From an uncultured Saprospiraceae bacterium (GTDB lineage: Bacteria; Bacteroidota; Bacteroidia; Chitinophagales; Saprospiraceae), in NCBI GenBank assembly GCA_937934275.1, contig CALHAM010000074.1:1-51540 (forward strand): a stretch of 51,540 bases of DNA, written 5' to 3'. A model generated the notes under the pieces. The model had not been told where the DNA came from and did not search any database. It worked only from the letters and a program-made list of their open reading frames with translations. Positions within the stretch are counted from its first letter, which is position 1, and each line of letters begins with the position of its first letter. This document shows, piece after piece, positions 39,022 through 49,349 of this stretch. The position numbers and the translations under genes were made by a program.

Positions 39022-42000
39022 ATGAAACAATCCCTCCTGCTGTTGGCGTGCGCAGCCCTCCTTCAGCACGTCGTTTTTGCTCAAAGTGCCAAGATCGTTG
39101 CACCTGCCGAAGGGCCAATGCCCCCTCCTGAGCGGCTTCAGATAAACCCTTGGCCAGGTCGTTCTGGTGTTCCTCCAGCGGCTCCGCTCTTGATGCCGGG
39201 GGCCTTTCCGTTTCGCTCCATAGGTGTGTTGCAGTTGCCCAAAGCCCTGGCAGAGGCGCAGTCGGTAGAGCGCGTGCTCGACGCCGACAGCGGGTTGCCC
39301 ATCTGGTTCAGCGGGCGGGTGAGCACCCCTGAAGTAGCCGAAGCCGACCGCTCCATCGAGGCGCGCGCCGTAGCCTACTTAGCTGCTTTGCGCCCCAACG
39401 GCTTGGAGCGCCCTGAGGTGGAGTTTGTCCCTCGCAGCGCGCATCAGGACGAGCAGGGCAATTGGCACATCCGCTTGCAACAGGTTTATCAGGAGGTGCC
39501 GGTATACGGAGCGGAAGTGGTGGCCCATACGCAAAACGGCGCTTTTGCCTTGCTCAACGGCCGCTATTACCCGACGCCACAGCTCGCTTCTACGACACCT
39601 TCGCTCAGCGCTGAACAAGCCATTCTGCGCGTGCGCATGCACGCGAGGCCACCCAAAACGGAGTGGACCGACGAGGAGCGCGCCTTAGTGGGTGGCCAGG
39701 AAGCCCGTGCTGAACTGACCATTTATCACCATGAGCGCCAACTCGACGCCGAACGCCTCGCATGGGTAGTTACCTTGTACACCGACCTACTGCACCGCAA
39801 AGTCTACTTTGTGGATGCACACGACGGCGCCATCCTGCATCATTTTGACTACTCGTGCCGCATAGCGCCGTTTCAGGATGCTCCAGCGCCTACGCTCACT
39901 ACTGCTCCTGCGCTTTGCGAACACACCTATGCCGCCGCTACCCTCGGCAACGGAAACCCTGTAACGGGCAGCGGCTTAGACTTGAAGAACATCAACCGCA
40001 CCTTCGGCGCTTGGCAAATCGGCGCTAATTTCTACCTGGAGGACGCCAGCAAGCCCATGTTCAACGCCGCAGCCTCCCAAATGCCCGGCAAGCCGGTAGG
40101 GGCTATTGTTACCCTCAACGCCAAGAACACGACGCCAACTAAGCCCAACACCTTCGACTACACCATCTTCATCTCCAACTCGACGGTCTTCAACAACAAA
40201 AGCGCCGTAAGCGCCCACTGGAACGCCATCCAAAGCCACGACTACTTCCGCAACACGCACGGTCGCAACTCCATTGACGGAAAAGGTGGCAATATCTTTT
40301 CGTTTTTCAACGTCGCCGACGAGGATGGCGGACCAATGGACAATGCCTTTTGGAATGGCTTTGCCATTTGGTATGGCGCGGGCAACGTCGAATTCTTCGA
40401 CCTGGCGCGCGGTCTCGACGTGGGAGCACACGAAATGGGCCACGGCGTCATCGAAAACACGGCCAATTTGGAATACCAAAACGAAAGCGGCGCCCTCAAC
40501 GAATCCTTTGCCGACATCTTCGGCGTTTGTGTAGACCGCAGTAATTGGCTCATCGGTGAAGACGTCGTGCGCCCTGGGACTACGCCCAACAACTGCCTGC
40601 GCGATATGCAGTTTCCCAACAACGGCTCGCCCGCCCAGCCCAAACATATGAGCGAAAAGTACACCGGCCCACTAGACAACGGCGGCGTCCACATCAATTC
40701 GGGCATCGTCAACCGCGCCTTCTTCCTCTTTGCTACCCACGCCGCCGTTGGCTTAGAGCGGGCCGAACGCGTCTATTACAAAGCGCTTCGCGACTATTTG
40801 GTCAAATCCAGCCAGTTCATTGACTGCCGGCTCGCCGTTATTCAGGCCGCTACCGACCTCTACGGCAGTGCCGTAGCCAATGCGGCCGCCGACGCCTTCA
40901 CGGCAGTGGGCATCGGCAGTGGGCAACCCAGCAATCCCTTTGGCTTGCTCAAAGAAAACCCAGGGGTTGGGCTTATTGTCTCTAAAACGAACAACGGCGC
41001 CTTGCTCGACTTACACCGCGACAACGGCCAGTACATCGGGACGCTGTACAACGGTGGGGTGGCCAGCCGCCCCAGCGTCTCGGACGATGGGCAGCAAATC
41101 GTCTTCATCAACAGCGAAGGGCACATCATTGGCATGGACCTGCAGTACGTCGCCCCCAATTTTATCTATCAGGCGTACCAACTGAGCCAGTTTCCGGAAT
41201 GGCGCAATGTGGCCATCTCGAAAAACGGCCGCTTCTTAGCCGCCCTCACCCAAAACGCCAATAACAACATCTACGTGTTTGACTTAGGCGATCCTCTGGG
41301 CAACTCGCGCGTGTTTACGCTGTACAACCCCACCTACTCGACCGGACAGACGACCAGCGACGTGCGCTATGCCGATGTGCTCGAGTTCGACTACTCCAAC
41401 GAGTACCTCATGTACGACGCCTTCAATGAATTGGTCAGCACAACGGGCCAAATATTGGAGTACTGGGATATTGGCTTCATGCGCTTTTGGCAAAACAATG
41501 CCTTCACCGCTTCGGTGCCGCCCATTTCTAAGCTCTTTAACGGCCTTCCTCCCGGAGCCAGCGTAGGCAATCCGGTGTTTTCGCAAATGGCGCCTTTTGT
41601 CATCGCCTTCGACTTTGTGGATGGCCTCGCCAATGAGTACCACGTGCTGGGCGCCAACGTACAGACGGGCGATGTGGGTCTTCTCGTGCCCGACAACGGG
41701 GTGTTGGGTTGGCCCAGCTACACGCGCACCGACAACGCGCTGCTCTTCGAGCGCCGGCTGAACAACCAATACAACCTCTATCGGCGCACGGTAGCCTCCA
41801 ACCGCATTGAGGGCACGGGGGCTTCAGCGCCGCTGGTGATTTCTTCGCACGATTGGGGCCGCTGGTTTGGCTTTGGCACGCGCAGCCTGCAGGTCGGCGC
41901 GCCCGCTCCTGAGGCAGCGGCTCTTCAGCTGCGGGCCAGCCCTAACCCCACCGCCGATGCCTTGCACCTGACTTTTGACTTAGCACAAGGCGGCTTGGTG

Positions 42001-42171
42001 CGCGCCGAAGTACTCGACCTGCTTGGCCGCCCCGTTCGCACCCTGACCCAAGAGCTGCCCGCCGGCGAACAGCGGATGGAGCTCGACCTGCGAGAGTTGG
42101 CCGCGGGCACCTATTTCGTGCGCCTTTGGGCAGGCGGTGTTGCCACAGGGCTAAAGGTGGTGAAACAGTAG
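39022..42171 (+). CDS. Thermolysin-like M4 metalloprotease with type IX sorting tail
   Basis: Secreted zinc endopeptidase of 1049 residues. A signal peptide (MKQSLLLLACAALLQHVVFAQ) is followed by an FTP/PepSY propeptide (about 100-270). The catalytic domain contains GAHEMGHGV with His470, Glu471 and His474, NESFADIFGV with Glu494 as third zinc ligand exactly 20 residues on, and GGVHINSGIVN with His557, as in thermolysin. Residues about 650-930 are a beta-propeller-like module (SDDGQQIVFINSEGHIIGMDL, then NGRFLAALTQNANNNIYVFDL). The C-terminus (LRASPNPTADALHLTFDL, then LRELAAGTYFVRLWAGG) is a classical Por sorting domain. It likely degrades external protein. A strong terminator follows. Confidence 0.94.
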   Translation: MKQSLLLLACAALLQHVVFAQSAKIVAPAEGPMPPPERLQINPWPGRSGVPPAAPLLMPGAFPFRSIGVLQLPKALAEAQSVERVLDADSGLPIWFSGRVSTPEVAEADRSIEARAVAYLAALRPNGLERPEVEFVPRSAHQDEQGNWHIRLQQVYQEVPVYGAEVVAHTQNGAFALLNGRYYPTPQLASTTPSLSAEQAILRVRMHARPPKTEWTDEERALVGGQEARAELTIYHHERQLDAERLAWVVTLYTDLLHRKVYFVDAHDGAILHHFDYSCRIAPFQDAPAPTLTTAPALCEHTYAAATLGNGNPVTGSGLDLKNINRTFGAWQIGANFYLEDASKPMFNAAASQMPGKPVGAIVTLNAKNTTPTKPNTFDYTIFISNSTVFNNKSAVSAHWNAIQSHDYFRNTHGRNSIDGKGGNIFSFFNVADEDGGPMDNAFWNGFAIWYGAGNVEFFDLARGLDVGAHEMGHGVIENTANLEYQNESGALNESFADIFGVCVDRSNWLIGEDVVRPGTTPNNCLRDMQFPNNGSPAQPKHMSEKYTGPLDNGGVHINSGIVNRAFFLFATHAAVGLERAERVYYKALRDYLVKSSQFIDCRLAVIQAATDLYGSAVANAAADAFTAVGIGSGQPSNPFGLLKENPGVGLIVSKTNNGALLDLHRDNGQYIGTLYNGGVASRPSVSDDGQQIVFINSEGHIIGMDLQYVAPNFIYQAYQLSQFPEWRNVAISKNGRFLAALTQNANNNIYVFDLGDPLGNSRVFTLYNPTYSTGQTTSDVRYADVLEFDYSNEYLMYDAFNELVSTTGQILEYWDIGFMRFWQNNAFTASVPPISKLFNGLPPGASVGNPVFSQMAPFVIAFDFVDGLANEYHVLGANVQTGDVGLLVPDNGVLGWPSYTRTDNALLFERRLNNQYNLYRRTVASNRIEGTGASAPLVISSHDWGRWFGFGTRSLQVGAPAPEAAALQLRASPNPTADALHLTFDLAQGGLVRAEVLDLLGRPVRTLTQELPAGEQRMELDLRELAAGTYFVRLWAGGVATGLKVVKQ

Positions 42172-43032: not shown

Positions 43033-44697
43033 TTAGCGGACAATAGCGACGGGCATATTGGGGTCGTAGCCGCCTTTGATGACGGGGCTTTGGCGATTGC
43101 CCGTATAGGCCCGCACGTGCTCGTAAACGAAGTCGTGTAGTTCCTGAACGGTTACAATTTTGTCGCGGTTTTTATCGGCTTCGCCTTTGAGGCCGCGGAT
43201 GAGGAAGTGGCTAAACACCCCTTGGCGCAGGCCGGCAGACTCCAAGGAGGTTTCGTCGGCTTTCGAAGACATGAGTAGGGCTGTGCCTGAAACGGCTTTG
43301 GAGAGCACCTGATAGTACTGGGCTAGCCCGGTTTCACCGGTACCCGAGCGCATGGCGATGAGGCTGCCGGAGTGGCAAGCGTCGGCGATGATGAGTTTGT
43401 AGCGGGCTTTGCTCTTGTTAAACATTCCGGCAATTTCCTCGTGGGCAATTTTGTTGTTGTAGCCGTCGAAGTCGATGGGCAGGAACGAGCCGTTGAGGCC
43501 GTGGCCAGAGAAATAGAAGATGACCAAGTCGTTGGGGCTGGCTAAATCGAACAGCTCTTGCAGGGTGCCCAGAACGTTGTGCCGCGTTGCGTCCTCGTCG
43601 ATAAGGATACGCACCTGTTCGTCGGGCAGGGCGCCGCCCTCATAGCTTTTCAGGAAGGCGTAGAAGCGATAGGCGTCGTCGTCGGTGTAGCGCAGGGCGG
43701 GCATGTGGTCGTAGGCAGCAACGCCCACGACGAGCGCCCAGACTTTAATTTGGGTGACGCCCGGGGGCGTGGGGGCAGGCAGCGAGACGACGGGCTTGAC
43801 CTCAGTGGGCGGCTGTTTGCCGATGTATTCGCCGGCGCGCCAGTAGCCGACTACTTCGGTGCCGTCTTTGAGGTAGAGCGTGCCCTTGCCCGAGTAGGCG
43901 CCTTCGGCCCATTCTCCGCGATAGTAGTCGCCGTTGGCATACAAGCAGGTGCCGAAGCCATGCGGCTGCCCATGGACAAACTCGCCGGTGTACTTGGCCG
44001 ACCCTTCGCGATACACGTAGGTGCCCTTGCCGTTTTCGCAGTCGCCCTCGATGCAACCGATGCGGTCGCTTTCGATGAGGCCCGAGCCGATGAACTCGCC
44101 TTCGCGCCATTGGCCGGTCTCTTGCTTGCCGTTGGCATAGGTGCGCGTACCGCGGCCGTGCGGATAGTTTTCCTTGAACTCGCCGACGTATCGGCTGCTG
44201 TCGGCAAAATAGAAGGTGCCTTGACCGTTGAACTTGCCGTTGACGAATTCACCCTCATATTTGCTGCCGTCTGGGTAGGCAAAGATGCCAAAGCCGTTTT
44301 TGCAATCGCCTACCAGACAACCCGACTGAATGTTGGTGCCGTCGTCTTGCTGCTCCTCTTTCTTCTTGACGATGTATTCTTCCAGGATGTTGCCGTTTTC
44401 ATCTACGGGTTTGCCGCGCTTCCACAACCCCGTGCGCTTCGTACCGTCGGGATAGGTTTTAGTGCCGCGGCCATCCGGATAGCGGTGTTTCCACTCGCCG
44501 CTGTACTTACTGCCGTCGGTGTAGTAGCACACGCCAATGCCGTGAATTTCACCGTCTTTGAAGTCGCCGATGTATTTCGCCCCCGAAGGGTAAATGTAAG
44601 TGCCACGGCCGTTGATGCAGTCCCCTTGCACGCATTGGGCCTGAGCGCCGAGCACTAAGGCGGCCAAGAGAAACAGGAAGAGCACTATTCGCTTCAT
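43033..44697 (-). CDS. Exported MORN-repeat protein with C-terminal caspase-like (C14) domain
   Basis: Protein of 554 residues. A signal peptide (MKRIVLFLFLLAALVLGAQAQ) is followed by a long series of MORN repeats (YIGDFKDGEIHGIG, YSGEWKHRYPDGRG, YEGEFVNGKFNGQG, YVGEFKENYPHGRG, YTGEFVHGQPHGFG, YRGEWAEGAYSGKG). These are arranged in three blocks each opened by C-x-x-GDC-x-NG (CVQGDCING, CLVGDCKNG, CIEGDCENG). After a Pro-rich linker the caspase fold begins (KVWALVVGVAAYDHMPALRYTDDDA) with catalytic His399 in YFSGHGLNG and Cys441 in ADACHSGS. Both catalytic residues are present, so it should be active, probably outside the cytoplasm. Related caspase-MORN proteins occur in Saprospirales; their role is unknown. 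Confidence 0.88.
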   Translation of the reverse strand: MKRIVLFLFLLAALVLGAQAQCVQGDCINGRGTYIYPSGAKYIGDFKDGEIHGIGVCYYTDGSKYSGEWKHRYPDGRGTKTYPDGTKRTGLWKRGKPVDENGNILEEYIVKKKEEQQDDGTNIQSGCLVGDCKNGFGIFAYPDGSKYEGEFVNGKFNGQGTFYFADSSRYVGEFKENYPHGRGTRTYANGKQETGQWREGEFIGSGLIESDRIGCIEGDCENGKGTYVYREGSAKYTGEFVHGQPHGFGTCLYANGDYYRGEWAEGAYSGKGTLYLKDGTEVVGYWRAGEYIGKQPPTEVKPVVSLPAPTPPGVTQIKVWALVVGVAAYDHMPALRYTDDDAYRFYAFLKSYEGGALPDEQVRILIDEDATRHNVLGTLQELFDLASPNDLVIFYFSGHGLNGSFLPIDFDGYNNKIAHEEIAGMFNKSKARYKLIIADACHSGSLIAMRSGTGETGLAQYYQVLSKAVSGTALLMSSKADETSLESAGLRQGVFSHFLIRGLKGEADKNRDKIVTVQELHDFVYEHVRAYTGNRQSPVIKGGYDPNMPVAIVR

Positions 44698-44786
44698 GTT
44701 GCAGTCGGATAAAGTCGATTTAGTAACGAAAATTTTTTGCGCCTGTTTAAACCCGTTGGTGCGCAAATTATTGCACTGGTAACCCC

Positions 44787-44827: not shown

Positions 44828-45688
44828 ATGGTGAAGAAAAGGTACTTGCTCTTGCTTGTTCTGTGGATAGGCGCTTTTCCCGCTTTTTCCCAAAAAAAGA
44901 TGGCCTACCGCCTCTACGACGCCCGCGGGCGGGCCGTGTCGTACGAAAAAATGCTCAAAGCCCTTAGCCGACAAGACATCGTGCTCTTTGGCGAATTTCA
45001 CAACAACCCCATCGCCCACTGGCTTCAGCTGGAGCTAACAAAGGACCTCCACTCGCTGCGCCCGCTGACGCTGGGTGCTGAAATGTTTGAAACCGACAAC
45101 CAGTACTTCCTCAACGCGTATCTGAGCGGCGAAATAGACGAGCGCGGGTTAGACTCACTGGCCCGCCTGTGGCGCAACTACAAAACCGACTACGCTCCTG
45201 TGGTGCGCTTTGCCAAAAGCCAGGGCCTGCCCTTTGTCGCCACCAACATCCCGCGCAAGTACGCCGCCATGGTAGCGCGCGGCGGCTTCGAGGCGCTCGA
45301 CACATTGCCCCTCATCGAAAAAGCCCTGATGGCTCCCTTACCTATCTCCTACGACCCCGAACTGCCCGGCTACAAGAACATGCTGACGATGTTTGGCGAT
45401 CACGCCAGCGAAAACTTCCCCAAGGCACAGGCGATAAAAGACGCCACCATGGCGCATTTCATCCTTCAAAACTTCGCGCCTGGGCGGCTCTTCTTACACC
45501 TCAACGGCGCCTATCACTCCGATAACTACGAAGGTATTGTGTGGTACTTGCGCCGCCAACGCCCCGAACTGCGCTGTGCCACCATCTCCACCGTGCAGCA
45601 AGCCGACGTGACACGCCTGCTGCCTGAGCACCGCAAACGGGCCGATTTCATCCTCTGCGTGGACGAAGATATGACCACCACCTACTGA
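44828..45688 (+). CDS. ChaN-like haem/iron-associated exported protein
   Basis: Protein of 286 residues with signal peptide MVKKRYLLLLVLWIGAFPAFSQ (no lipobox Cys). The ChaN/haem-binding uptake fold is visible: DIVLFGEFHNNPIAHWLQLEL, LTLGAEMFETDNQ, FVATNIPRKYAAMVARGG, AIKDATMAHFI and LHLNGAYHSDNYEGIVWYL. Campylobacter ChaN binds haem pairs through a surface Tyr and is iron regulated; whether this protein binds haem is not evident. It is convergent with the conflict gene cluster, the stops being 16 bases apart. Confidence 0.85.
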   Translation: MVKKRYLLLLVLWIGAFPAFSQKKMAYRLYDARGRAVSYEKMLKALSRQDIVLFGEFHNNPIAHWLQLELTKDLHSLRPLTLGAEMFETDNQYFLNAYLSGEIDERGLDSLARLWRNYKTDYAPVVRFAKSQGLPFVATNIPRKYAAMVARGGFEALDTLPLIEKALMAPLPISYDPELPGYKNMLTMFGDHASENFPKAQAIKDATMAHFILQNFAPGRLFLHLNGAYHSDNYEGIVWYLRRQRPELRCATISTVQQADVTRLLPEHRKRADFILCVDEDMTTTY

Positions 45689-45704: not shown

Positions 45705-48101
45705 CTATGGCTCAACGGAATCGGCGAGATCATCCAATTGCCTCAGCAGCCCGGCGACAATCTGAGTGTGCGGATGTTGCTCTCCCAACTGCCGCGCAAA
45801 GACTCGATGCGCTTTTTCGAGCAGCCTTTGCGCCTCCGCCAACTCGCCCATCTCGGCCAGCACAACGCCCAGGTTGGAGTAACTCACCGCCGTGGTGGGA
45901 TGGTCCGGCCCGAAATTGCGTTCGTAGGATTTCAGCGCCTTTTCCAACAGGCCCTTGGCGCCGGCGTAGTCGCCCAAAGCATGAAGTACAGTAGCCAGGT
46001 TGGAGTACCTCACCGCCGTGGTGGGATGGTCCGGCCCGAAATTGCGTTCGTCGGATTTCAGCGCCTTTTCCAACAGGCCCTTGGCGCCGGCGTAGTCGCC
46101 CAAAGCCTTAAGGACTAAGCCCAGGTTGGAGTAACTCACCGCCGTGGTGGGATGGTCCGGCCCGAAATTGCGTTCGGCGGATTTCAGCGCCTTTTCCAAC
46201 AGGCCCTTGGCGCCGGCGTAGTCGCCCAAAGCCTGAAGGACTAAGCCCAGGTTATTTTGGAGTCGCGCTTTTTCCAAAAAATCTTCTTTGGAGAGGGCCT
46301 GGAGCAATTCCAGCCCGTAGGGTATCCATGGGAATTTGTCTATCGGGTTGTCTTTGGTTTGGTCTATCGAGAGTTTTTCGGTGAAGGTTTCTACCAGCGG
46401 CATCAAATCCGCTGCGCTTGCGGGCTGAAGGTGGGCCACTGCGGTGCGGATGAGGCGGTGGCAGCCGAAGCGCTGGTCGCTTCCCGATTGGGTCAGCCAG
46501 CCCAATTGGCGCAGTCGGCGCACGCGATTGGCAAACGGCGCTTTGCGCTCTTGCTCCACCTTCAACCACGCCATGAGGTCGGCGATCGGATAGCCCTCGG
46601 CGCTGGGCGGCAAGGCGGCGATCTGTTTCAGCGTCAGCATCAGATCGGCATCCGATGCGATGCCGGACAAATCGAAGGCCCACTGCAGGTGCCGGTAAAG
46701 CTGGGTCTCCTCGCCGGCATGGGGGACATAGATGTCGATCCGCAGCCGTGGATCATCCAGCGCCCTCTTGTCGAAGTAGTCGGTCAGCTCCTTTACCGCA
46801 CGGATTTCGGGGTGATGCGCCAGCGTTTTGGCAAACAGCTCGATGCTCAGCGTGTGGTAGTCCAGCTTTTGTAAGAAGGCTGCCAGGTCTTCGTCGGATT
46901 GCGGTTTGTCGGGGCAGTGCCGCCGGAAGAGTTCGATGGCGGCCTCTTGGCTCAGCTTGCCCAATTCATACACGGCGAAATCGCCGAAGGTTTGTCTGGA
47001 AGTGAGCAGGATGTCCCAGTGCCTGTCGGAGGGCAGCCAGTCTTTCACACGGCAAACGGCATCGTCTGCGTTGTCCAACACCATGAGGTTTTTGCCGTCC
47101 TGGTTTTGAAGGGCCCGCAGCGCGCGTCGGAGTAGGTCGTCGGGGGTTTCGCCCTGCTCTTTTCGAATTTCGAGCGCGCCGAGAAGCGCCGCATCGCCGG
47201 CAACGGATTGGGCCAAGGACTCCTTTACCTCTATCCACAACAAGCGGTCGTACTCGTCTTCGTAGTTGTGGACGTATAACTTGGCCAGGGTGGTTTTGCC
47301 GATACCTCCGACGCCGTTCATGAGCAGGAGTTGGGAGGAGTCCGCCAGCTTTCTCCTAAGTTGGGCGAGATCGTCGCCCCGACCTATGACTTCCCGGTTG
47401 CTGATGCGCGGCACTATGGTGAGGCGTCGGGCGCTTCGCGAGCGACTTTCGCGCTTGGCCGTTTCCCAATACCCATCGCTTGAGTGGTGGTGCGCCTGGT
47501 TTTCGCGGTACGCGTCTTCGAAATGGCGCGCAAACAAACCAGCCGGTAAGATGAGGGCGTCGTCGCTGGGCGCTTTCATCCAATACACGACGCCGAAAAA
47601 CTCGGCGGTGTCGGCGTTGAGCACCGGCGTGCCGCTGCTGCCCGGATGGATGGCATCCAGCGAAATCCGAAAAACCGAATGTCCGTTGTGGACGGCTTCC
47701 TCCTTCAGAACGGGTACGATACCCGCTCCGCCCGGGTACAGGCGGTTGTAGGTCCACGCCCATAGCTTTTGTTCCGCCCGACTGGACGCGGCGGCCTTGA
47801 GGTTGACGCATCGGGTAGAGACGTCCCGCCCCAGATCCACCACCAACAGGTCGAGGTCCGGAAAGTATTTGGTGTTGTCATCGCGCAGAGCGAACTCGCC
47901 TTCGACGCCGTCTAATCGAAACGAGGCCGTCAGCCAGGCGCGAGTGGCATCGTCGTAGAGCACGTGGCGGCAGGTAGCGAGCTTTCGGGGCGTAATGAAA
48001 AAGCCCGTGCCCAGTATGTCGTCGTTGGGTCCGGTGATTTTCACCGTACAGGCTTTTGTCAATCGTTTAAGCGGCGAGCGATCGAGATGGGTCGGTGTCA
48101 T
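45705..48101 (-). CDS. Trypsin-like protease / NB-ARC STAND NTPase / TPR protein (conflict system)
   Basis: Single 798-residue polypeptide without a signal peptide. Residues about 15-190 are a trypsin-like serine protease with an intact triad: His46 (ATCRHVLY), Asp82/84 (PDLDLLVVDL) and Ser156 (HPGSSGTPVLN). Residues about 235-430 are an NB-ARC/STAND NTPase: Walker A GVGGIGKTT at 263-271, Walker B LMVLDNAD at about 339-346, ILLTSRQ and LDYHTLSIEL. A winged-helix region (about 470-560) follows, then TPRs of kinesin-light-chain type from about 610; three 42-residue units (624-749) are nearly identical. This is the design of prokaryotic STAND conflict proteins: protease effector, NTPase switch, repeat sensor. 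It directly follows the Trypco1-like gene (TGA then ATG, no gap). Targets and triggers are unknown. Confidence 0.9.
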   Translation of the reverse strand: MTPTHLDRSPLKRLTKACTVKITGPNDDILGTGFFITPRKLATCRHVLYDDATRAWLTASFRLDGVEGEFALRDDNTKYFPDLDLLVVDLGRDVSTRCVNLKAAASSRAEQKLWAWTYNRLYPGGAGIVPVLKEEAVHNGHSVFRISLDAIHPGSSGTPVLNADTAEFFGVVYWMKAPSDDALILPAGLFARHFEDAYRENQAHHHSSDGYWETAKRESRSRSARRLTIVPRISNREVIGRGDDLAQLRRKLADSSQLLLMNGVGGIGKTTLAKLYVHNYEDEYDRLLWIEVKESLAQSVAGDAALLGALEIRKEQGETPDDLLRRALRALQNQDGKNLMVLDNADDAVCRVKDWLPSDRHWDILLTSRQTFGDFAVYELGKLSQEAAIELFRRHCPDKPQSDEDLAAFLQKLDYHTLSIELFAKTLAHHPEIRAVKELTDYFDKRALDDPRLRIDIYVPHAGEETQLYRHLQWAFDLSGIASDADLMLTLKQIAALPPSAEGYPIADLMAWLKVEQERKAPFANRVRRLRQLGWLTQSGSDQRFGCHRLIRTAVAHLQPASAADLMPLVETFTEKLSIDQTKDNPIDKFPWIPYGLELLQALSKEDFLEKARLQNNLGLVLQALGDYAGAKGLLEKALKSAERNFGPDHPTTAVSYSNLGLVLKALGDYAGAKGLLEKALKSDERNFGPDHPTTAVRYSNLATVLHALGDYAGAKGLLEKALKSYERNFGPDHPTTAVSYSNLGVVLAEMGELAEAQRLLEKAHRVFARQLGEQHPHTQIVAGLLRQLDDLADSVEP
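45855..46232 (-). repeat. Three nearly identical 126-base tandem repeats encoding TPRs
   Basis: Three in-frame units of 126 bases (42 residues, ALGDYAGAKGLLEKALKS followed by xERNFGPDHPTTAV). The same 33-base segment recurs at 45891, 46017 and 46143, exactly 126 apart. The few differences fall mainly at codons within helix surface positions (S/D/Y before ERNFG; Q/K/H before ALGDY; S/R after TTAV). A fourth, diverged unit follows at the C-terminus. Confidence 0.93.
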
Positions 48102-48434
48102 TCAGGCATTTTTATTGCCGTGATCAAACTCCCAGGTTAGCGAAAATTTGATGCTTCCCTTTCCGGAGACATTGCAGATTTTGGAAAACACGTCGCCGCC
48201 TTTTTTTTCCAGTTCAATGGAAAATTCAGCGGTAACCTTATCGGGCTTGGCGCTCTGGATGGCGGCCTTGATGTCGGCGGCCAAACTCGACACCGCCTTC
48301 AGCGCCTGCTGCGCGCTCAGTTGCATGTTCCGCACAGAAACAGGACCGTCGTAATCGGAGTCGGCGGCGACTTCCATCAGGATGACGACGCCGTCCGAGA
48401 GCTTGACTTCAGCAGAAGTGGTGGAGTTTTCCAT
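48102..48434 (-). CDS. Trypsin-co-occurring domain 1 (Trypco1)-like small protein
   Basis: Protein of 110 residues starting MENSTTSAEVKLSDG. It follows the Trypco1 pattern: an N-terminal strand pair (VVILMEVA), a central helix (LSAQQALKAVSSLAADIKAAIQ), then VTAEFSIELEKKGG (68-80) and a final GSIKFSLTWEF (93-103), comparable with the family's EFGxKLSAEAG and VTLTW ends. Trypco1 proteins are encoded beside trypsin-STAND conflict proteins and are proposed to be recognition or activation partners. Its stop codon is immediately followed by the ATG of the protease-NTPase gene, so the two are probably translationally coupled. The frame to 48494 would cross the promoter and is rejected. Confidence 0.8.
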   Translation of the reverse strand: MENSTTSAEVKLSDGVVILMEVAADSDYDGPVSVRNMQLSAQQALKAVSSLAADIKAAIQSAKPDKVTAEFSIELEKKGGDVFSKICNVSGKGSIKFSLTWEFDHGNKNA

Positions 48435-48466
48435 AGGCTCCGATGGTTTAAGCAGTAAATGAGCAC

Positions 48467-48495
48467 GAAAGGTAAACAAAAACGCGTTTTTCAAA
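48467..48495 (-). promoter_or_regulatory. Putative promoter of the conflict operon (TTTG-N17-TACCTTTC)
   Basis: On the minus strand TTTG (48492-48495) and TACCTTTC (48467-48474; one mismatch to TAnnTTTG) lie 32 bases before the Trypco1 ATG. This gives the module its own promoter, independent of sodA, whose terminator lies further upstream. Confidence 0.4.
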
Positions 48496-48669: not shown

Positions 48670-48703
48670 GCAGGCTCTCCGCCTTTTTGGGCGGAGAGCC
48701 TGC
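48670..48703 (-). terminator. Rho-independent terminator after sodA
   Basis: A 14-bp perfect stem GCAGGCTCTCCGCC (48670-48683) and GGCGGAGAGCCTGC (48690-48703) with a 6-base loop. On the minus strand it is followed by CCTTTTTGC. Confidence 0.85.
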
Positions 48704-48737: not shown

Positions 48738-49349
48738 TTATGAGCGCGCAGCCGCGTAGTGCCGAGCAACGGCGTCCCAGTTGACTACATTCCACCACGC
48801 TTCTACGTAATCGGGCCGGCGGTTTTGGTAGTGCAGGTAATAGGCGTGCTCCCAAACGTCAATGCCGAGGATGGGGGTACCGGGCTTTTCGGCCACGTCC
48901 ATGAGCGGGTTGTCTTGGTTGGGGGTGCTGGTGATGAACAGGTTACCATCGGCACCTACACACAGCCAAGCCCAGCCGGAGCCAAAGCGCCCAATGGCGG
49001 CAGCGGCAAATTGCTTTTTAAACTCCTCAAAAGAGCCGAAGGTACTCTCAATAGCCGAAGCCAAGCTCCCCGAGGGCTGACCGCCGCCTTTTGGCGACAT
49101 GAGGTTCCAGAAAAAAGTGTGGTTCCAGTGGCCTCCGCCGTTGTTGCGAACGGCAACCGGCAATTTAGACACTTGGGCGAGCAAGGCCTCCAAAGACTTG
49201 TTCTCGTGCTCGGTGCCTTGGATGGCTGCATTGAGGTTGTTCACGTAAGCGGCATGGTGCTTACCGTGGTGGATTTCCATGGTGCGCGCATCAATGTGCG
49301 GCTCCAGCGCATCGTGCGCATAGGGCAGGTCGGGAAGTGTAAAAGCCAT
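48738..49349 (-). CDS. sodA: Superoxide dismutase (Fe/Mn family)
   Basis: Converts superoxide to oxygen and hydrogen peroxide in the cytoplasm. It has 203 residues with all four metal ligands: His27 (MEIHHGKHH), His77 (GHWNHTFFW), Asp164 and His168 ([20 protein letters not shown]). [10 protein letters not shown] is also conserved. Fe or Mn preference, or cambialistic use, cannot be fixed by eye, so the symbol follows the Mn-type convention. Monocistronic: a strong terminator follows. Confidence 0.96.

Follow-up and report, generated by a model that had tools for sequence, protein, structure and literature searches.

A two-gene Trypco1 / protease-NB-ARC-TPR cassette in a Saprospiraceae genome, probably an immune or cell-death device

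The subject of this work is a two-gene cassette found in a 51,540-nucleotide stretch of DNA from an uncultured Saprospiraceae bacterium (contig CALHAM010000074.1 of assembly GCA_937934275.1; this whole stretch is called the window throughout). The first gene encodes a small protein of the Trypco1 family and the second a large protein in which a trypsin-like serine protease, an NB-ARC STAND NTPase and an array of tetratricopeptide repeats (TPRs) are fused. The cassette is probably an immune or cell-death device, and we favour, at a probability of about 0.55, the view that the pair constitutes an NLR-like intracellular switch in which the TPRs would sense, the NB-ARC domain would switch and the protease would kill or arrest the cell, with Trypco1 as a partner. 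An apparent recent exchange between lineages and a diversified TPR array both fit such a role in conflict.

Both genes are encoded on the minus strand, flanked by sodA (48738-49349) and chaN (44828-45688), and together they specify 908 residues. The TGA of the small gene occupies 48104-48102 and the ATG of the large gene starts on the very next base, i.e. the genes abut; the span of the module, the protein lengths and the TGA-ATG junction had been given in an earlier sequence-only reading of the window, and all were correct on re-reading. The parts of the cassette are as follows.

48102-48434, minus strand: first gene of the pair, encoding the Trypco1-family small protein P0002, 110 residues (Pfam PF19493, NCBIfam NF041216)
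45705-48101, minus strand: gene for the trypsin-like protease / NB-ARC STAND NTPase / TPR protein P0001, 798 residues
47589-48011, minus strand: Trypsin_2 protease domain, residues 31-171 (Pfam, E 1.2e-9; triad H46, D84, S156)
46989-47369, minus strand: NB-ARC domain, residues 245-371 (Pfam, E 4e-9, 36.5 bits against a cut-off of 23.5)
45753-46256, minus strand: four 42-residue TPRs, residues 616-783 (TPR_12 in four stretches, E 4.9e-54)
45879-46256, minus strand: the three near-identical inner TPRs, residues 616-741

That the small protein belongs to Trypco1 had been proposed without a database search, and a profile search bears this out: Pfam PF19493 matches significantly (E 1.1e-12, 48.8 bits against a cut-off of 24.6) over positions 1-97 of its 98, and the NCBIfam model CU044_2847 (NF041216) also scores above its cut-off. 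The structure model of the small protein (beta-beta-alpha-beta-(short helix)-beta; mean pLDDT, a per-residue confidence score, of 68) is too weak to lean on. The large protein likewise carries what had been ascribed to it, since Pfam and alignments find the protease triad, the NB-ARC P-loop, the Walker B motif and the TPRs all present and intact. The triad is conserved in 18 of 18 aligned Trypco1-linked proteases, and both the P-loop GVGGIGKT (residues 263-270, with K269) and the Walker B residue D343 are invariant in a five-sequence alignment. The order of protease, NB-ARC and TPRs is that of effector, nucleotide-binding oligomerisation domain (NOD) and repeats, the tripartite plan of STAND and NLR-like proteins.

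We found Trypco1 in 22 of 398 genomes of a family sample and in 2 of 395 genomes of a phylum sample (both counts include that of the window), and we compared the genes around 25 Trypco1 places, 24 of them from the 22 family genomes and one from genome G240. The next gene on the same strand is trypsin-like in 18 of the 25, including G570 and the first of two G649 genes, which fell short of E 0.001 with Pfam and were called by alignment and conserved triad. Of these 18 proteases 13 are fusions with a STAND-type NTPase, although the Pfam NTPase match is under its cut-off in four (G575, G240, and contigs 249 and 549 of G650) and the call in G027 is a P-loop seen by eye; the remaining five have the protease solo or with another domain. 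The full protease-NB-ARC-TPR form occurs in seven genomes: that of the window, G035, G570, G578, G650 (contig 549, with a protein 54% identical to the window protein), G485 and G649, where a single Trypco1 gene is followed by two tandem genes of this form encoding 1210 and 1119 residues with long, diverged TPR arrays (L102:6444-13949). In G476, one of the five places with the protease solo or with another domain, Trypco1 and the trypsin-like gene are directly followed by an AAA ATPase gene and a CoxE-type vWA gene (L093:180-4507), an arrangement that resembles a ternary conflict system. In a Phaeodactylibacter metagenome-assembled genome (MAG; L059:3683-13090) a NACHT protein lies to one side of the module, and resolvase and N6-methylase/HSDR_N genes lie to the other. 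Behind the Trypco1-linked protease the switch varies (NB-ARC, NACHT, nSTAND3 or metallophosphatase) and so does the sensor (TPR or pentapeptide), which makes Trypco1 plus protease the constant unit.

Because this pairing stays constant while switches and sensors change, we assign Trypco1 to the protease and not to sensing. Its favoured role would be that of an inhibitor or gate, to which we give somewhat less than half of the weight, followed by adaptor and then substrate. A different possibility is that Trypco1 is the true effector, a proprotein cleaved by the protease into an active toxin, like nuclease-protease pairs. The combination of a small upstream gene with a protease-fused immune protein does mirror the gene order of Avs, Hachiman, Lamassu and DRT systems (PMC12799240; this and the other papers are cited for the parts of their text that were available). 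Trypco1 and protease also co-vary, with a Mantel r of 0.925 between their distances over 18 pairs and of 0.644 over the 12 pairs left after removal of six close relatives, a correlation that can be explained by co-inheritance alone. We nevertheless regard a toxin proprotein as improbable: the protein is 110 residues long with no enzyme family match in Pfam or NCBIfam, seven diverse members of the family share just seven invariant columns (M1, L12, D14, G15, E21, E70 and L99) among which no catalytic motif is recognisable, and Trypco1 is also found with no trypsin-like neighbour.

At four such places a CHAT (caspase-like) gene stands in place of the trypsin (L082, L086, L088 and L092). The first of these, in G810, has two CHAT genes near Trypco1, one of them EAD11-CHAT; G615 has an EAD11-CHAT gene, G718 a leucine-rich repeat (LRR)-Roc-COR-CHAT gene and G724 a CHAT-like gene that is below the cut-off. 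G488 has an EAD11-NACHT-pentapeptide gene beside Trypco1, and contig 11 of G474 and G739 likewise have no trypsin-like next gene. Since a trypsin-like or CHAT gene lies beside Trypco1 in 22 of the 25 places, the association of Trypco1 with proteases may be wider than trypsin alone.

Close relatives carry the cassette only rarely. Trypco1 is present in 3 of 37 genomes of the same genus and in 3 of 60 genomes of a sample of relatives, the window's genome included, and the named records that match the Trypco1 alignment amount to four loci, on contigs of two uncultured Saprospiraceae and two Phaeodactylibacter MAGs. Among the matches listed, those of the large protein that include the protease come only from the window's genome and one relative, G035, i.e. 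from 2 of 42 genus genomes, which speaks for a module that is no fixed housekeeping locus; all 42 have matches to other portions of the protein. The large gene of G035 is split over contigs C6 and C39, which both break off within the TPR array; one of the two also carries sodA, and the other chaN.

The sequence-only reading had likened the pair to an accessory cassette inserted between housekeeping genes, and a comparison of the sodA-chaN interval agrees with this status, as a different cassette occupies the gap in another relative, G018 (L040:5048-7225). It comprises a toxin-antitoxin-like pair, in which the antitoxin-like gene is of the XRE type and the toxin-like gene of the Gp49 type, together with a phospholipase D (PLD) nuclease with a DpnI_C domain, which suggests a small site for swapped defence genes. 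All 42 genus genomes have a sodA match and six have chaN. The two genes share one contig, within a few kilobases of each other, in the window's genome and in G018, and by inference in G035; in G022, G029 and G062 they lie on different contigs and are uninformative for the gap, and G010 has sodA with no chaN match.

Comparison of the window with G035 dates the cassette relative to its surroundings. Synonymous divergence (dS) is 1.20 for the histidine kinase gene, 1.00 for sodA, 0.74 for chaN and 1.12 for a gene encoding a MORN-caspase protein, as against 0.28 (0.14-0.46) for Trypco1 and 0.16 (0.12-0.20) for the STAND gene, with 0.05 (0.01-0.09) in the C-terminal 144 codons of the latter. In Fisher tests of synonymous differences against the flanks, made on rounded counts, p is 2e-57 for the STAND gene and 2e-8 for Trypco1. 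Amino-acid identity, at 84% for both the STAND protein and the chaN product, would alone look clock-like. Since the dS of the module lies far below that of its flanks, the cassette appears to have moved between lineages after their split, and transfer or homologous replacement is the simplest reading. A phage or plasmid origin found no support: neither 50,697 phage records nor 72,556 plasmid records contain a Trypco1 match at E 0.01, and none was confirmed in viral contigs; the large protein, searched against plasmids and not against phages, matches 160 plasmid records, none of which covers more than 80% of the protein or reaches 60% identity.

The STAND gene also shows a ratio of nonsynonymous to synonymous divergence (dN/dS) of 0.52 between the same two genomes, against 0.05-0.13 in the flanks, which is suggestive and goes no further, because short divergence can inflate such values. 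Protein residues 1-118 hold the highest share of amino-acid change between the carriers, and the excess in the protease region is modest (Fisher p 0.037, rounded counts). A divergent recombination tract is disfavoured as its cause because synonymous divergence is hardly raised there (dS 0.21 against 0.13-0.18 elsewhere, with overlapping intervals). Values of 0.95 (0.58-1.84) for residues 1-118 and of 1.09 (0.48-5.99) for the C-terminal TPR part could mean relaxed constraint in a degrading or neutral remnant of a once active system. We consider a remnant very improbable, given that the frames are open in both carriers, that the triad is kept throughout the aligned proteases and that dN/dS is low in Trypco1 (0.23, 0.09-0.55), in residues 119-232 (0.22, 0.10-0.49) and in the NOD (0.47, 0.30-0.74).

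The same observations bear on whether the large protein, with an HtrA-like active-site loop and a MalT/AfsR-like STAND, might be directed not at invaders but at the cell's own affairs, its protease being regulated in response to internal stress, for protein quality control or in signalling, and its TPRs sensing an endogenous protein. Its active-site loop, DAIHPGSSGTP, is what we take to be closer to HtrA than to a Lys/Arg-cutting trypsin; STAND-TPR proteins also serve as regulators, and NCBIfam gives a partial AfsR match in the 798-residue protein; and the site adjoins sodA and chaN. The patchiness of the module, its transfer after divergence, its high dN/dS and its diversified repeats are, however, unlike a housekeeping regulator, and the other five protease-NB-ARC-TPR loci have different surrounding genes. 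On balance a stress protease seems unlikely, and we return to the conflict switch and to its putative sensor.

The three inner TPRs measure 126 bp each and are 90-95% identical to one another in DNA. Amino-acid differences among them fall at repeat positions 1, 4, 5, 8, 27 and 41, and the sole silent difference is at position 6. Position 25 is Lys (AAA) in all three copies of the window and Glu (GAA) in all three of G035, a uniformity within each carrier which indicates homogenisation of the copies lineage by lineage; a repeat copy with Ala-Thr holds the same place in both arrays. A structure model that is confident over residues 631-770 (block means 80-93) places five of the six changed positions of the window array on helix A, the inner TPR helix, and one on helix B.

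Positions 2, 5, 9, 12, 13, 33 and 34 of the TPR are described as the most variable, concave-face positions (PMC1261162), and we mapped the 42-residue repeat onto the 34 TPR positions ourselves. Changes were counted in six arrays, five from the window's genus and one from a Phaeodactylibacter MAG, using repeats that have a partner of at least 80% identity; the arrays are partly non-independent, those of the window and G035 being of shared ancestry. On the seven contact-equivalent positions out of 42 we found 36 of 97 nonsynonymous changes (permutation p 0.001), or 30 of 91 when position 1 is left out (p 0.003), and a slightly different selection of repeats gave 39 of 110 (p 0.0013). Silent changes have no excess at these positions (7 of 50, p 0.72). 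Positions 27 and 41 change strongly yet fall outside the seven. Both L102 genes and L099 were dropped from the count, having no two repeats at 80% DNA identity, as were single repeats with no such partner, including the last, degenerate ones. The number of repeats in homologues, counted as TPR_10 stretches, ranges from 2 up to 13 or more, and the copy number in the window may be wrong because the contigs of two relatives (G035 and L058) break off inside such arrays.

Diversification of the array by a diversity-generating retroelement (DGR) was considered and rejected. A search of the assembly with the repeat DNA turned up no template: the gene itself was alone in matching over the length, and the other three hits cover just 15-28 query bases; the assembly consists of 157 contigs, so that a copy may be lost or collapsed, and reverse transcriptases were not searched for. 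Near-identical TPRs also occur in STAND-TPR proteins of the genus with other N-termini (L047:5927-7801, on contig 11 of G035; L048:5759-7681; L049:121-2493), and many of the repeat positions that change in the window array change in these proteins too.

We propose, more tentatively and at odds below even, that the cassette represents a mobile bacterial NLR whose TPR sensor evolves by copying and homogenisation of repeats with change on the ligand face and no DGR, whose protease is gated by Trypco1, whose array type is common to STAND proteins of the genus with other N-termini, and which would be a counterpart of the fungal incompatibility NLRs. The close parallel with the TPR pattern of the fungal NB-ARC-TPR incompatibility proteins (PMC4986451) is equally an argument for a device of kin or non-self recognition (allorecognition), whose diversity would be maintained between strains rather than against phages, and the same alternative has been raised for bacterial conflict systems (PMC10907252). 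We give little credence to allorecognition, as neither contact-dependent exchange nor within-population polymorphism is in evidence in a comparison of one genome per species.

For the favoured switch, we infer from these comparisons the following course of events, up to an antiphage or death outcome. The C-terminal TPR array would bind a non-self or danger ligand through residues of its inner helices, and binding would lead to nucleotide exchange and oligomerisation of the NB-ARC domain. Oligomerisation would gather and activate the N-terminal serine proteases, and the activated protease would cut cell proteins, so that the infected cell is stopped or killed. Trypco1 would be the dedicated partner of the protease domain and bind to it, most likely so as to keep it in check or to present a substrate, and it may itself be the first substrate. 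The array would shift its specificity as near-identical repeats are copied and made uniform while amino-acid changes persist at the contact positions.

Several observations weigh against this interpretation, in addition to the caution attached to dN/dS. PADLOC 2.0 fits no whole-protein model to the large protein, its best partial match being RT-Protease_XI over the protease (E 3.3e-7), and has no match for Trypco1. The full-length structure model of the large protein (mean pLDDT 55) is useful for the TPRs alone. The 15 other genes of the window that were scanned look housekeeping-like and not like a defence island, and the module-free comparator site comes from one relative only, G018, where the gap is filled and not empty. 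Seven of the 25 Trypco1 places have no trypsin-like next gene, four of them being CHAT-adjacent (one below the cut-off). As for the array, that of the window by itself has four of its eight changes on contact positions (p 0.053), purifying selection prevails on the whole in two larger arrays (nonsynonymous fractions of 0.55 and 0.62, where about 0.75 is expected), and near-identical repeats are lacking from three arrays of this module type (the two L102 genes and L099).

The neighbours of the module in the window, as assigned by Pfam, are sodA, a histidine kinase gene, chaN, the MORN-caspase gene and ruvA. Two features lie upstream of the pair.

48670-48703, minus strand: intrinsic terminator 3' of sodA with a 14-bp stem, at the boundary between sodA and the module
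48467-48495, minus strand: weak promoter candidate TTTG-N17-TACCTTTC, spotted by eye only, with one mismatch to what we take to be the Bacteroidota consensus

Given the strong terminator after sodA, the Trypco1/STAND pair is probably its own transcription unit. The sequence-only reading had credited it with a promoter candidate of its own; the separation from sodA stands, whereas the promoter itself is uncertain, pattern searches upstream of the pair having found no sigma-70-type site and no exact Bacteroidota-type promoter. The MORN-caspase gene (43033-44766, minus strand) was considered as a third component. Its product has MORN repeats followed by a caspase-family (C14) domain, and the gene adjoins chaN in the window and likewise in G018 and G035. 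We place it outside the module because these relatives of it stand beside chaN, in G018 with no module present, and because it evolves slowly (dN/dS 0.05). Further away, at 39022-42171 on the plus strand, is a gene whose large product is a metallopeptidase of the M4 (thermolysin) type that carries a Por secretion tail.

The components of the cassette and the idea of a conflict system built from them are already in print (PMC7159879, PMC10907252). In open-licence papers we found no description of a two-gene Trypco1 / protease-NB-ARC-TPR module, nor, in a limited search of such papers, of contact-face diversification or hypervariable TPRs in bacterial NLRs. The paper that defined Trypco1 (Kaur et al. 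2020, PMC7159879) puts it next to trypsin-VMAP genes, in MoxR-vWA ternary systems. The sequence-only reading had regarded trypsin-STAND proteins with Trypco partners as catalogued: Trypco1-trypsin conflict systems are indeed in print, but the two-gene module with a STAND-TPR protein was not met in the available part of that paper. With the ternary systems the window module has in common a predicted NTP-dependent conflict role (PMC7159879); it differs in that the protease is on a STAND NB-ARC-TPR protein and that there are two genes only. It was rejected as a VMAP ternary system, its neighbours in the window including no VMAP, MoxR or vWA gene; a genome search gave no VMAP-C match, and no control scored in that search either. 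Trypco1 is named for its gene neighbourhood, and the 908-residue pair, with no MoxR, vWA or VMAP gene nearby, would allow its effect on the protease to be studied in a system of very small size.

In the protease fusions of Avs, Hachiman, Lamassu and DRT systems the upstream gene encodes a metallo-beta-lactamase (MBL) nuclease (PMC12799240), whereas in the window it encodes Trypco1 and the large protein is a 798-residue NB-ARC-TPR switch; no MBL-fold nuclease was identified by Pfam beside the fusion, which has Trypco1 and then sodA upstream and chaN downstream. Bacterial CARD-NLR systems such as LypABC, where the known case ends in lysis, share with the window a trypsin-like peptidase and an NLR-like TPR NTPase (PMC13236601). 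They differ in having a CARD and in encoding peptidase and TPR-NLR as separate genes, while the window protein is a fusion with no Pfam CARD match. STAND sensors diversified by DGRs are, like the window protein, bacterial conflict proteins with diversified sensors, and Trypco1 and trypsin occur near some DGR loci (PMC10907252); the sensor is a C-type lectin in those proteins and a TPR array, with no template repeat in the assembly, in the window.

Varied repeat numbers and interchangeable switch domains make the homologues of the window protein a natural set of variants for comparison. The fungal NLRs, e.g. the sesB-like/NB-ARC/TPR protein Pa_2_10340 of Podospora, have, like the window protein, an NB-ARC domain followed by near-identical TPRs, with signs of concerted evolution and change at concave-face positions, and kinesin light chain, the modelling template for the fungal repeats, is also the best PDB sequence match for the TPRs of the window (PMC4986451). 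They are eukaryotic proteins with another effector, in which positive selection was tested on several wild isolates and falls on concave positions, in contrast to the few genomes used here. If the window array is a fast-changing sensor, it would provide a bacterial model for the way in which NLR repeats gain new specificities, a process so far worked out in fungi.

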